Source of the DNA: Gammaproteobacteria bacterium
GTDB lineage: Bacteria > Pseudomonadota > Gammaproteobacteria > Burkholderiales > Burkholderiaceae_C
DNA length: 64,000 nucleotides
NCBI GenBank assembly: GCA_018815325.1
Contig: JAHIYE010000016.1
Coordinates: forward strand, 1-64,000
Direction of reading: 5' to 3'
The stretch's first letter is position 1; every line of letters begins with the position of its first letter. Under the pieces are notes generated by a model. It worked only from the letters and a program-made list of their open reading frames with translations. It had not been told where the DNA came from and did no database searches. The translations under genes were made by a program, and so were the position numbers. Below, in pieces: positions 4,457-9,821 of this stretch.

Positions 4457-4580
4457 GGGGTTTCTCCAAATCATGGGTTGCAGTGCCTACCCTAAGGCGA
4501 TTTTTACTCCAACGCAAGACATAGACCATTCCAGCCTGTCGGGCGGAACTTTCTCTCACCCAGCGGGCTCCATCCTGCTC

Positions 4581-5447
4581 ATGAAACGCCTGATCATCTC
4601 CCTCATCGCCGCCCTGACCCTGCTCGCAGGCTGCGCCACCCTTGACGAAAAACAGCGCAGCTGGATCTTTCAGCCCTCGGACCGCAGCTGGTCCAACTCG
4701 GCGGAAATGGCCGCCGGCATGGACGATGTGTGGATAGACTTCAACTCCCGCGAGACCGGCCAGCCCGTCAGGCTGCACGGCCTGTGGCTGGCCCATGACA
4801 ACGACCCGCAGCGCGCAGACACGCCCGTGATGCTCTACCTGCACGGCGCGCGCTGGAACGTCACCGGCTCGTCCTACCGCATCCGGCGCATGCAGGCGCT
4901 GGGCTTCTCGGTGCTGGCCGTGGACTACCGTGGCTTCGGCAAAAGCAGCAAGGACCTGCCCTCCGAGACCATGGCCTATGAAGACGCCCGCGCCGCCTGG
5001 GACTGGCTTGCCCACAAGCACACCGACCGGCCGCGCTACATCTTCGGCCATTCACTGGGCGGCGCCATTGCGATCGAACTGGCCGCCCAGGTGGACGATG
5101 AAGCAGGCACCGTGGTGGAAGGCACCTTCACCTCCATCCCCGATGTGGTGAGCAGCTTCAAGTGGGGCTGGCTGCCTGTTTCGCCGCTCATCACCCAGCG
5201 CTTCGAAGCCGTCAAGCGCGTGGCCCAGATCGGCTCGCCCCTGCTCGTGGTGCACGGCACGAACGACAGCCTCATTCCACCCGAACTCGGCCAGCGTCTG
5301 TATGACGCCGCCATGACCCCCAAGGCATTCGTGTTGGTGGAAGGGGGATCGCACCACAACACCAACTCGGTGGGTCAGGGGCAGTACCGCCAGGCGCTGG
5401 CGGATTTGTTCGGGCTGGGTGGCGAGCTCAAACTCGTGAAGAACTGA
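4581..5447 (+). CDS. alpha/beta-hydrolase lipoprotein
   Basis: 288-residue predicted serine hydrolase attached to a membrane by a lipid anchor. The N-terminus is a lipoprotein signal with lipobox LAGC (Cys18). The fold is recognisable from the YLHGARW oxyanion region, the nucleophile elbow GHSLGG (Ser about 158), an acid residue in GTNDSLIP and a histidine in GGSHHN. The frame stays open upstream of 4581, but only this ATG gives a signal peptide. It resembles YqiA/FrsA-like or Bem46-like hydrolases; substrate unknown. Confidence 0.88.
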   Translation: MKRLIISLIAALTLLAGCATLDEKQRSWIFQPSDRSWSNSAEMAAGMDDVWIDFNSRETGQPVRLHGLWLAHDNDPQRADTPVMLYLHGARWNVTGSSYRIRRMQALGFSVLAVDYRGFGKSSKDLPSETMAYEDARAAWDWLAHKHTDRPRYIFGHSLGGAIAIELAAQVDDEAGTVVEGTFTSIPDVVSSFKWGWLPVSPLITQRFEAVKRVAQIGSPLLVVHGTNDSLIPPELGQRLYDAAMTPKAFVLVEGGSHHNTNSVGQGQYRQALADLFGLGGELKLVKN

Positions 5448-5525: not shown

Positions 5526-6149
5526 CTAGGTGCGGGTTTCGCGCCAGGTCGATACCAGCAGCCCCAGCCCCAGAGTCCCCAGCAGCACAGACGCCACGCG
5601 GTTCGCTGCCACCCTGGCTTGCGAGTAGGCCGTGCGCACGCGGGGGCGCGAGAACAGCCAGGCCAGAAGCAAATGCCAGCCCAGCGCGTTGAGCACGATG
5701 ATCGCCACCGCAGTCACCTGCAACAGATGCGAGGGTGCGGCGGGCAGCGAGGCGGCAAACACACTGCCAAAAAACATGGCCGACTTGGGGTTGGTGATGT
5801 TCGTCAAAAAACCCAGCCGAAACGCCGCCGCCCGCGAGGCCACCTGCGCACTGCCCGTCAAGGGCGTGCCACTGGAGCGCCACAGCCGGCTCGCCACGTA
5901 CAGCAGGTACACCCCGGCCGCGATCTGCAGCGCCAGCCGCAAACCGGGGAAGACCAGAAAGATGGCGTTGACGCCAAGCACGGCACTCGTCACCCACAGG
6001 AAGGTGCCCAGCGTGACACCCAGTGCGGCAAACACGGCACTGCGTTGGCGGTCACTGGCTGCGAGCTGAGACACCAGCAGCGTGTTGGCGCCAGGGCTCA
6101 GCAAGGCGGCTACATGGAGGAACCAGATGGTGAGGAGAGTAGCGAGCAT
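5526..6149 (-). CDS. LysE/RhtB-family amino-acid exporter
   Basis: 207-residue inner-membrane protein with about six hydrophobic segments. It carries the family signature near the N-terminus (SPGANTLLV; usual form PGP) and the central segment GFLTNITNPKSAMFF, typical of LysE/RhtB exporters of amino acids such as homoserine, threonine or lysine. Base composition is high-GC like the chromosome, unlike the cassette genes just upstream. The minus-strand sequence 50 bases upstream contains a cassette core-like half-site (6192-6198), but the gene itself looks chromosomal. Substrate not predictable. Confidence 0.9.
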   Translation of the reverse strand: MLATLLTIWFLHVAALLSPGANTLLVSQLAASDRQRSAVFAALGVTLGTFLWVTSAVLGVNAIFLVFPGLRLALQIAAGVYLLYVASRLWRSSGTPLTGSAQVASRAAAFRLGFLTNITNPKSAMFFGSVFAASLPAAPSHLLQVTAVAIIVLNALGWHLLLAWLFSRPRVRTAYSQARVAANRVASVLLGTLGLGLLVSTWRETRT

Positions 6150-6191
6150 GGTAAATGAAGCGTCAACTCCAGAATGCGGGATGCACTAATT

Positions 6192-6198
6192 GTTATAC
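6192..6198 (-). other. orphan attC-type inverse core half-site
   Basis: On the minus strand the heptamer GTATAAC followed by AATT repeats exactly the first 11 bases of the intact attC at 6916-6975. No matching GTTRRRY core or hairpin arms could be found on its LysE side, so it looks like the truncated end of a cassette array. Confidence 0.45.
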
Positions 6199-6365
6199 GT
6201 CTTTGCCATGTCTGCTTGAAAGCATCAGCGCAGCCACGTCAGCAGCCGAGTGTCGAGGCTGTCCTTCAACTGGGGATTCCGGGGAACCCCATCCTGGCTG
6301 AGGATTGTCGTACTTGATGGTCTCAAGGGTGCGCAAAGCAGAAGCAGCGCGCTACTGAAGCAGAG
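6199..6365. other. gene-free remnant after the last cassette
   Basis: This stretch lies between the inverse core site overlapping the orotate phosphoribosyltransferase stop codon and the orphan half-site near the LysE gene. It should hold the rest of the attC of that cassette, but I see no well-paired arms and no clean GTTRRRY site (nearest is a GTTGAAG). A partial inverted repeat around AGCAGCGCGCT is present (about 6339-6349). No open frame is convincing. Confidence 0.4.
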
Positions 6366-6372
6366 GTTAGGC
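6366..6372 (-). other. cassette inverse core site (R'') of the orotate phosphoribosyltransferase cassette
   Basis: Minus-strand GCCTAAC fits RYYYAAC and contains the TAA stop of the gene. It is the exact complement of the GTTAGGC core at the cassette's own upstream boundary (6916-6922), as predicted for a cassette excised at those two points. The remainder of this attC is not recognisable. Confidence 0.65.
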
Positions 6373-6882
6373 CTCAGCGAGGTGTGCATACGTGAGTAGC
6401 GATTTCAGTTCAATGCCCTCGACTGCCAGCGCTTCTGAGCCACCGGACTGACGGTCGATGACGCAGAGCGCCACACTCGTATTCAGACCATCGCCCCTGA
6501 GCAATTTCAACGCATCAATGATGGCGCCGCCACTGGAGACAACGTCTTCGACTAGGACGAATTGACGCCCTTCAAGCGTAGCTCCTTCGGCGTACCGGCA
6601 AGTACCGTATGTTTTGGGTTCTTTGCGAATGAACGCGGCTGGAAGGCCGGTAACTTGACTGAGCATAGTGACGACCGGGATTCCTCCCATTTCAAGGCCT
6701 GCAAGTACCTCGGTTCCTGCTGGGATAAGGTGAGCCATCTCGATCGCGATGTCACGCAAAAGAACAGGATCGGCCTCGAAGCGATACTTGTCGAAGTAGG
6801 TGTTGCTGACCTTTCCCGAGCGAAGTGTGAAGGATCCTTCAATTTGCGCGCATGTCTTGATGCGCTTCGGAATGGTGTTCAT
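6367..6882 (-). CDS. orotate phosphoribosyltransferase-like gene in an integron cassette
   Basis: 171-residue PRPP-dependent phosphoribosyltransferase, predicted to make orotidine 5'-phosphate from orotate and PRPP. The PRPP motif is VLVEDVVSSGGA (acidic pair E112-D113) and the catalytic-loop-like segment FIRKEPKTYGT carries the expected lysines. It is shorter than the usual PyrE of about 210 residues. The start is the ATG about 37 bases after the cassette boundary, without a clear ribosome site; the frame stays open upstream. Its TAA stop lies inside the inverse core GCCTAAC, complementary to the GTTAGGC that opens the cassette, as expected for a mobile cassette. GC content is lower than that of the flanks. 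A second chromosomal pyrE probably exists elsewhere, so this may be a spare copy or have shifted specificity. I give no gene symbol for that reason. Confidence 0.85.
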   Translation of the reverse strand: MNTIPKRIKTCAQIEGSFTLRSGKVSNTYFDKYRFEADPVLLRDIAIEMAHLIPAGTEVLAGLEMGGIPVVTMLSQVTGLPAAFIRKEPKTYGTCRYAEGATLEGRQFVLVEDVVSSGGAIIDALKLLRGDGLNTSVALCVIDRQSGGSEALAVEGIELKSLLTYAHLAEA

Positions 6883-6915
6883 GAGTGGAGGATAGTCGCG
6901 AATGCGTTTTCTGAG

Positions 6916-6975
6916 GCCTAACGCCTGAATTAAGCGGCGTGCCGGAGGCACGTCCGCTTGAATGAATTGTTATAC
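6916..6975 (-). other. attC: attC recombination site (59-base element)
   Basis: A 60-bp site with every hallmark. On the minus strand it runs GTATAAC (inverse core), AATTCATTC, then an imperfect palindrome AAGCGG-A-CGTGCC-TCC-GGCACG-CCGCTT with one unpaired A in the left arm, then AATTCAGGC and the core GTTAGGC. The unpaired base is the feature integrases use to choose the strand. It closely resembles attC sites of the aadA type. The stop codon of the upstream cassette gene lies inside the inverse core. It separates two cassettes read on the minus strand. Confidence 0.92.
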
Positions 6976-7695
6976 GTCACCGAAGTGGGCTGCTGCGTCG
7001 AATGTGTTTCGGTTACGGCTCCGACGAATAAGCCAAACATAGACCTCTACTGAATCCTGCGTCAGCCCTGCACGATGTCTACCCGCTAGACTGCACTGAT
7101 AGCTAATTGGGATGTCGTGCCCAATCTGCTCTGCCCTACCTTTCCAGAATTTTTGCATTCCTTGATCGCAATCACGAACTGCGACACGCACTTGCTCGTA
7201 AGGGTACGATTTTTCTTGTGGATCCCGTGGCTGAAGTATGTGAGGAAGAACTTGCACTCGTGGTGCGCCGTTGCCGGCTCTTACTTCAACATCTAGGAAA
7301 AGAGCTTTTAGCGATCGTCTAATTCCACCAATGACAAACGCTCGATCTGTGGCAGCAGAGACGTCCTGTTCCAAGCTTTCCAAGCGAAGAATGTCTTCGG
7401 CGACCTCCCGCGCCCATTGACGTGTTCCTCCATCCGACTTGATCCACTTTGCCTCAAGGACAAAGGCCGCTGGCGTATCAGGGCGAGTGCGCCCGAGGAG
7501 GTCTAACCGTTTACTTCCTGGAAGATCTGGATGGTTGTACTCCGGCGTCAAAAGTAGCTGCGTGGTTGACTGGATAAACTCGGCGGAGGCTCGGACGAGG
7601 CTTGATTCCTCAATGAAAGAACGGCGATCACAGAGTCGCTCGTACTCCAAGATGCACGCAGCCCCGCTCGCCAAGTTGTTCCAGTTAACTGTCAT
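6970..7695 (-). CDS. PD-(D/E)XK-like protein of unknown function in an integron cassette
   Basis: 241-residue soluble protein that I cannot assign to a named family. The central segment has the spacing of a PD-(D/E)XK nuclease core: RLDLLG with Asp65, then FVLEAKW with Glu81-Ala-Lys83. A helix rich in charged residues follows (QWAREVAEDILRLESL). No signal peptide or membrane segment is present. The gene starts 12 bases after a GTTATAC core and its TAA stop is inside the GTATAAC inverse core of the attC, so gene and site form one cassette. Codon use is less GC-rich than that of the chromosomal neighbours. Cassette genes of this kind are often defence or stress genes; the nuclease idea rests only on the D...ExK pattern. 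Confidence 0.65.
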   Translation of the reverse strand: MTVNWNNLASGAACILEYERLCDRRSFIEESSLVRASAEFIQSTTQLLLTPEYNHPDLPGSKRLDLLGRTRPDTPAAFVLEAKWIKSDGGTRQWAREVAEDILRLESLEQDVSAATDRAFVIGGIRRSLKALFLDVEVRAGNGAPRVQVLPHILQPRDPQEKSYPYEQVRVAVRDCDQGMQKFWKGRAEQIGHDIPISYQCSLAGRHRAGLTQDSVEVYVWLIRRSRNRNTFDAAAHFGDV

Positions 7696-7706
7696 GTGTG
7701 ATTGAC

Positions 7707-7713
7707 GTATAAC
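7707..7713 (-). other. core site opening the first cassette
   Basis: Minus-strand GTTATAC is the exact complement of the inverse core GTATAAC at the end of the first cassette (6969-6975), so 6969-7713 behaves as one cassette unit. No attC arms, attI-like region or integrase gene is visible on its upstream side. Confidence 0.6.
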
Positions 7714-8115
7714 TTAATGTATGGAGAAAAACCTGCTCGATAAACTGGGGTTTGCTCGATACTCTGGACATTGAATCCCCCTGAAAATGGCTTGCAGCCT
7801 TGTTTTGCATAGGGTTTTCAGATTTTTATACAGGCATAAAAATTCCGTGAAACCCGGCGGCCTTTATAGGCCGATTCTAGGAGCCATTTGAATGAAAGCA
7901 CGCCCATCCCCCCAATACAGGTAAACGACTGTAATGGGGCAACATCTCGAATATCCGGCCTGGGTCGTTTTGAGTCAACCACGCTGAGCACGTAAAGCAA
8001 GCATTCCAATAAGGTGCAGGTTTGATTTACCAAATTCTCACATATTGAGATTTTCATTTGACACCTGAAGCCAGACCCACGACAGTCACCGGACTGATTC
8101 AACCTAGTCCCACCC
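7714..8115. other. 402-base non-coding stretch upstream of the cassette array
   Basis: AT-richer than its flanks. Where an integron would have attI and intI, there is no integrase reading frame. Two TCGAGCA-containing stretches lie about 20 bases apart near 7735-7760, and a GC-rich inverted element (CGGCCTTTATAGGCCG, 7858-7873) sits in the middle. A 99-codon minus-strand frame here lacks any recognisable protein character. Confidence 0.5.
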
Positions 8116-8960: not shown

Positions 8961-9821
8961 ATGCCACGCGCCAACCGGATGCTGCGCATCCTCAGCCTGT
9001 TTGATCTCACCCGCCCCGTGCTCACGCCCGAGCTGCTGATGACTGAGCTGGGCGTTTCCCGCGCCAGCGTGTACCGCGACCTGGGCCAACTCACACAGGC
9101 CGGGCTGATTGAGCGCGTGGCCGAGCGCGGCTATGCGCTGGGCTCCACCATCGTGGAGCTGGACCGGCAGATACGTCTGGGCGACCCGCTGCTGAACGCA
9201 GCGGACACACTGCTCAAGAAGCTGGCGGACGACAGCGGCGGCATCGTGCTGCTGTGCCGTGTGCATGGCAGCAAGGTGATGTGCATCCACCAGGTCCGGG
9301 GACGCAACGCCACGCTCCCTGTGAGCTACGAGCGCGGGCGCGCCATGCCGCTGTACCGCGGTGCCACCTCCAAGATCATCCTGGCGAACCTGCCCTCCTC
9401 TGCACTCAAGACCCTATGGACACGCGAGAAGAACGCGCTGGTCAAGGCCGGCTGGCCCACCACGCTGGCCGCCTTCGTTGAAGCACTGGCTGCGCTGCGG
9501 GCCCAGCACTACTGCATCAGCCAGGGCGAGGTAGACCCCGATGCACTGGGCATGGCCGTGGCCTTGCACGATGGAGGCAAACTGCTGGGCAGCCTGAGCG
9601 TGGTGCTGCCCGCGACCGGCACCTCGGCACTGGCACACCGCAACGTGCTGGCGCATTTGCAGAGCACGGCACGCCGCATCGAGGCCCGGCTGGAAGACGA
9701 GCGCATGAAGGCCCGCAGTGACACACGCGCCCGCAACAGCAAACCCGGCAACACCGCTGGCAGCAAAGTTGCCAGCAAGACAAGCGCAAAAAAGAAGACT
9801 CCCAAAGCAGGCAAGGCATGA
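8961..9821 (+). CDS. IclR-family transcriptional regulator
   Basis: 286 residues. An N-terminal winged-helix DNA-binding domain (helix-turn-helix around LMTELGVSRASVYRDLGQLTQ) is followed by the IclR effector domain (SYERGRAMPLYRGATSKIIL). The frame is open further upstream, but ATG 8961 places the start of the DNA-binding domain correctly. The tail of about 40 residues is rich in Lys/Ser/Ala, an unusual extension that may aid non-specific DNA binding. It overlaps the next gene by four bases (ATGA), so regulator and hydroxylase are translationally coupled. It probably responds to an aromatic pathway intermediate. Confidence 0.92.
   Translation: MPRANRMLRILSLFDLTRPVLTPELLMTELGVSRASVYRDLGQLTQAGLIERVAERGYALGSTIVELDRQIRLGDPLLNAADTLLKKLADDSGGIVLLCRVHGSKVMCIHQVRGRNATLPVSYERGRAMPLYRGATSKIILANLPSSALKTLWTREKNALVKAGWPTTLAAFVEALAALRAQHYCISQGEVDPDALGMAVALHDGGKLLGSLSVVLPATGTSALAHRNVLAHLQSTARRIEARLEDERMKARSDTRARNSKPGNTAGSKVASKTSAKKKTPKAGKA

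Follow-up and report, generated by a model that had tools for sequence, protein, structure and literature searches.

Integrons are usually counted by an integrase gene together with attC sites, and attI is typically annotated for the known classes only, so that attI platforms without an integrase have likely been overlooked. The described systems closest to the locus considered here are the CALINs, in which cassettes with attC sites have no intI nearby and are in principle mobilizable in trans, and the sedentary integrons with an inactivated intI (Xanthomonas, and the "pseudo-integrons" of Nemergut), whose attI and cassettes have outlasted the integrase at a single ancestral position (ilvD in Xanthomonas). 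Decay of intI, CALINs, and mobilization in trans are already known (PMC2426708, PMC9024848, PMC12444791). IntegronFinder 2 calls a CALIN from two attC sites upward (PMC9024848), and the definition ignores attI. In mobile integrons, attI-type cassettes have been described, as have R''-only truncated cassettes and ΔattI-type cassettes, which contain an attI and recombine with IntI1 (PMC12901181). A search of the open-access literature, with subscription papers outside its scope, found no description of dispersed attI units lacking intI.

The locus and the resident integron

The window (the whole stretch of DNA analyzed, 64,000 nucleotides) carries on its minus strand what is probably an integron platform without an integrase, consisting of an attI unit and two gene cassettes and representing one copy of a dispersed intI-less family of the Comamonadaceae. 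The cassettes would once have been inserted by IntI; the array would be nearly frozen without a local integrase, and attI would serve mainly as an expression platform. The features are as follows.

7865–7967, minus: outer part of the attI unit, tentative; GGCCGATTCTAGG and a GGGTCG end motif common to other intI-less units in alignments
7714–7864, minus: attI unit without intI; array on the minus strand, former intI side facing the plus strand
7685–7771, minus: 28-codon leader ORF, Shine-Dalgarno AGGGGG; extends past the crossover as far as the ATG of cassette A, which it overlaps
7707–7713, minus: core GTTATAC, the attI/cassette A junction; crossover between 7713 and 7712
6922–7712, minus: gene cassette A (791 bp), delimited by the attI core on one side and attC on the other
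6970–7695, minus: coding sequence of cassette A, 241 aa, no family matches; stop inside R'' GTATAAC
6916–6975, minus: attC of cassette A; 55.9 bits, E 3.1e-10; fold z about −4
6367–6882, minus: coding sequence of cassette B, PyrE-like orotate phosphoribosyltransferase; stop inside R'' GCCTAAC
6354–6372, minus: truncated attC of cassette B, R'' GCCTAAC and the start of L'' (core scan and covariance-model scan)
6188–6201, minus: GACGTATAACAATT, putative R''-region remnant; 14-bp exact repeat of the R'' region of the cassette A attC

On the minus strand the order is attI unit, G|TTATAC, cassette A, its attC, G|TTAGGC, cassette B, and a cut-off attC. The preliminary description, which saw here an integrase-less integron remnant of the CALIN type, had started from a 60-bp attC with an extrahelical base at 6916–6975, and this site is borne out. 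A covariance model trained on 36 attCs from other loci, with the window attC held out and with helices that show strong covariation, found it as the sole match within the 64 kb, at a score that rules out a chance attC. By the same score it ranks second among the attCs of the genome (3.86 Mb), and both of its strands fold better than 200 of 200 shuffles. The complementary core pairs that had been pointed out are real, GTTATAC (7713, minus) with GTATAAC (6975, minus) and GTTAGGC (6922, minus) with GCCTAAC (6372, minus); the four 7-mers are rare, occurring at six places in the 64 kb in a plus-strand scan, five of them inside the locus. Of the two cassettes proposed, A is complete, with an attC and with R' complementary to its own R'', but B is delimited by its cores only and lacks a whole attC: R'' and about 11 bases remain, the site being cut after about 18 bases, and the covariance model with filters off reached at best 2.3 bits in 6100–6450. 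Cassette B belongs to the R''-only type of truncated cassette (PMC12901181). The 14-bp copy at 6188–6201, a repeat of which, allowing up to two mismatches, the window would be expected to contain 0.03, is read as the probable remnant of another R'' region.

The earlier statement that no integrase is present holds locally but not genome-wide. Searches with IntI (tblastn) detected no intI coding at 7865–7967 or in the flank of the array, and the only full integron integrase in the 27 contigs of the source genome lies on another contig, C20 (454.7 bits). A DNA search with the upstream flank of the array led to the segment just upstream of this C20 intI, which is part of a complete integron having intI, attI, and three attCs linked in a chain through complementary R'/R'' cores. 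The window and C20 attI sites are 87% identical over 86 bp, and the homology ends at the crossover G|TT in the core at 7707–7713, which is itself complementary to the R'' at 6969–6975. Because the homology stops at the crossover, the window from 7714 onward is attI, and because attI occupies 7714–7864, the locus reaches upstream to at least 7864. To judge from its sequence, the unit is made up of the crossover core, predicted IntI-binding repeats, a vestige of the intI promoter region, a Shine-Dalgarno sequence, and the leader ORF. All that is left of intI is the stretch AAACCCGGC, matching its first codons, and the LexA-like box is degenerate. Since attI is present and intI coding is absent, the locus is an intI-less integron, with orphan cassettes as had been proposed. 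It is not merely a CALIN, since a genuine attI with a leader ORF precedes the array and a single attC above threshold occurs in the 64 kb.

An attI sequence model (R1) built from 28 attI elements matched the window at 7712–7865 (E 1.7e-31) and found five copies in the source genome, one each in the window, on C20, and on C7, and two on C14; the C14 and C7 copies are diverged, and a small ORF directly follows each. In the inner 84 columns (the core side, or IntI-binding half), none of the 121 elements is as close to the window attI as C20 (87% identity), whereas over the outer 68 columns C20 drops to rank 91 of 121 (53%) and the twelve best are all intI-less. The window attI matches the attI model, has no intI within 1.2 kb, and is closer in its outer part to intI-less than to intI-bearing attI. 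These comparisons hint at a mosaic, with a core half like that of C20 and an outer half like that of intI-less units of other genera, but this is suggestive only because the left-right difference is just about 2 SD above the mean; in a whole-element tree, the window attI falls in a mixed clade. A mosaic would fit gene conversion, or selection matching the IntI-binding part to the resident integrase.

Two other places in the genome should be recorded. On contig C8 (G000:C8:94939-95007; L202 5940-6008), an attC of 43 bits, its R'' mutated, stands alone right after a 118-aa HAD-like ORF and may be, with this ORF, a single stray cassette, possibly an attG-type insertion. The 15.9-kb contig C9 encodes, at 4579–5385, a tyrosine recombinase that shares about 30% identity with IntI, and it has a weak attC-like match (26.7 bits) at 9685–9751.

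attI units without intI in the Comamonadaceae

Of 401 genomes drawn evenly from the family, 91 contain the attI (E 1e-9 or better), 48 of them in two or more copies, and the total comes to at least 201 copies with up to seven candidates scored per genome. IntI was undetectable (E 1e-60 or better) in 54 of the 91 copy-bearing genomes, which is an upper bound because some assemblies are draft and a few integrases may be missed. Genomes picked for having a match (28) contain 1–10 copies each, a Rhodoferax having ten, and of 200 genomes sampled across the order outside the family, 4 gave weak matches. A scan of named genomes gave 66 stretches, nearly all from Rhodoferax, Acidovorax, Polaromonas, Hydrogenophaga, Simplicispira, Giesbergeria, Comamonas, and further Burkholderiales; one Sphingomonas match is weak and may be due to chance. 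For 64 named-genome elements the sequence extends 1.2 kb or more to the intI side; among these, intI is full in 14, partial in 6, and absent from 44. Unlike the pseudo-integrons, which sit at one ancestral locus, the intI-less attI units of this family recur within a genome, at as many as 10 places, and in most cases the intI coding is gone. It also extends to pH1NP1, a mobilizable Polaromonas plasmid with one attI unit, no annotated intI, and genes chained by R'/R''.

A core leading to a complementary R'' and an attC is present at 24 of 64 cores, compared with 7 of 320 shuffled controls. The attCs near these attI copies (E<0.01) are all on the array side and share the orientation of the array (73 of 73) in a scan that covered both sides and both strands, but with a training set drawn partly from the same array sides. 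The family members can be taken, on these grounds, as real attI sites. Such a family of landing sites suggests either one integrase serving many capture sites or sites that multiply without an integrase.

In intI-less units, a near-palindrome, GGCAAACTATAGCTTGCC (or GGCCGATTCTAGG), is conserved about 20 bp past the old intI start. Two Hydrogenophaga loci (L091, L105) have an internally deleted intI of which the last ~40 codons remain about 75 bp from attI, possibly a step between intI-bearing and intI-less units. Two attI units stand in tandem and in the same orientation in Acidovorax facilis (L198 833-2135) and in L097 (3516-4904); in L198 the inner unit clearly follows an attC in the array of the outer attI, at a distance of about 80 bp, and L097 looks similar. 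In two genera (L056 and L058, from G316 and G249), an IS110/IS1111-type transposase gene adjoins the attI core on the array side and the core is altered to GTAGTRATG; these insertion sequences possibly target attI, as others target attC.

Alternative origins of the locus

Insertion of the cassettes at the window attI could go back to a local IntI, active in cis until intI disappeared, or to the IntI of the C20 integron working in trans. The strongest rival to a platform of a dispersed family is a plain fossil, that is, a chromosomal integron with a deleted intI that is now decaying, the other attI sites being independent fossils and nothing acting in trans or spreading; this is a credible account, a little short of an even chance. 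Decay of intI is common, about one third of the genes being pseudogenes (PMC2426708), and repeated inactivation is recorded in Xanthomonas (PMC12444791). Truncated stages of intI adjoin attI in other genomes, and the cut attC of cassette B and the degenerate LexA-like box of the window are also in keeping with decay. The relationships among the units speak against it. In a tree of 69 elements (one midpoint-rooted tree from a short alignment), the intI-less label changes 6 times versus 16 in shuffles, with intI-less copies in their own supported clades, several of which are well supported and span two or more genera. In genome G267, a unit of about 290 bp is found at five places, the query and four other contig positions, with 85–90% identity and unrelated flanks, the remaining 4 kb of the query failing to follow the unit; it runs from the attI core to a GGGYC-type motif, and a search for an empty site turned up no syntenic relative. 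In addition, the IntI-binding half of the window attI is still closest to that of the resident attI.

From the same observations a further proposal can be made, at present doubtful: that the orphan attI units of the Comamonadaceae are non-autonomous and multiply and disperse without their integrase, that a single IntI, resident or plasmid-borne, acts in trans on many platforms, and that the window is such a platform, its IntI-binding half matched to the resident integrase and its outer half derived from an intI-less lineage. Both the route of spread and any use of the window attI by the resident IntI are inferred. It is improbable that the unit travels as an attI-type cassette with an attI as its 3' recombination site. 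The ΔattI-type cassettes offer a candidate vehicle (PMC12901181), and the tandem units of L198, and perhaps those of L097, would fit one; yet, out of more than 100 units, an attC just upstream was seen in one or two at most, and the unit end is not an integron core. The window attI unit shows no sign of being such a cassette, with neither attC nor core seen at its outer end, where L198 has an attC. A CALIN formed when a trans-acting IntI placed the cassettes at an unrelated chromosomal site (attG) is very improbable, even though mobilization in trans and attG insertion have been described (PMC12444791, PMC12901181), the cassettes have no local integrase, and the lone C8 attC may be a case of this kind. 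The upstream junction of the array is with an attI, homologous up to the crossover, rather than with a random site, and a plain CALIN or attG insertion is thereby largely refuted.

The leader reading frame and the cassette cargo

Read toward the array, most elements of the platform family have a Shine-Dalgarno sequence, an ATG or GTG, and an open frame that ends at a stop in the GTTAG of the cassette or continues into the cassette. The leader start lies exactly 60 nt ahead of the core in 107 elements and 63 nt in 9, with 3 out of frame and 8 others; at least 4 of 6 Shine-Dalgarno positions match in 104 of 107 elements, and there are 8 internal stops in the leader frame versus 49 and 28 in the other frames. 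The in-frame pN/pS of the leader peptide is 0.98, so that constraint at the amino acid level is absent and a functional leader peptide is unsupported; because of this, only initiation and frame can matter. The attI binding sites alone might account for part of the conservation. A consensus scan for a promoter reading into the array gave none better than chance, and Pc was not located.

The leader resembles ORF-11 of the class 1 attI1, a small ORF with a Shine-Dalgarno sequence that lies across attI, often takes its stop from the cassette core (GTTAG), and couples translation to the first cassette, coupling in the present family being deduced from sequence. In ORF-11, it is initiation and not the peptide sequence that matters (PMC8876359, a review). 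The family leader differs in having 20 codons, a start that in most cases lies 60 nt ahead of the core, and another sequence. In the window, ribosomes starting on the leader ORF would re-initiate at the overlapping ATG of cassette A. In six other loci (L156, L162, L169, L182, L187, and L197), the attI leader ORF is in frame with the captured gene, which predicts an N-terminal extension supplied by the landing site.

The protein of cassette B matches TIGR00336 (114.5 bits, above cut-off) and the native PyrE is encoded on contig C2 (180 bits). That cassette B is itself a native gene beside a cassette is ruled out by the complementary cores at both of its ends and by the PyrE on C2; it is a PyrE-like enzyme accessory to the latter. 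For the protein of cassette A there was no sequence match in Pfam, NCBIfam, PADLOC, or PDB and no viral or plasmid relative, and the 401 family genomes yielded a single, 30%-identical protein. The two share a D...ExK pattern (RLDLL..FVLEAKW), which is typical of PD-(D/E)XK nucleases and suggests, by inference only, that cassette A may have a fold of this type; a single-sequence AlphaFold model is of low confidence (pLDDT 42.6). Rfam and tRNA scans added nothing.

Should a single integrase supply many attI sites, the capture of genes would be genome-wide instead of being confined to a single locus, and each captured gene could stand first behind a ready-made translation start. This would provide a concrete answer to the origin of the single and apparently stray cassette genes of environmental β-proteobacteria.
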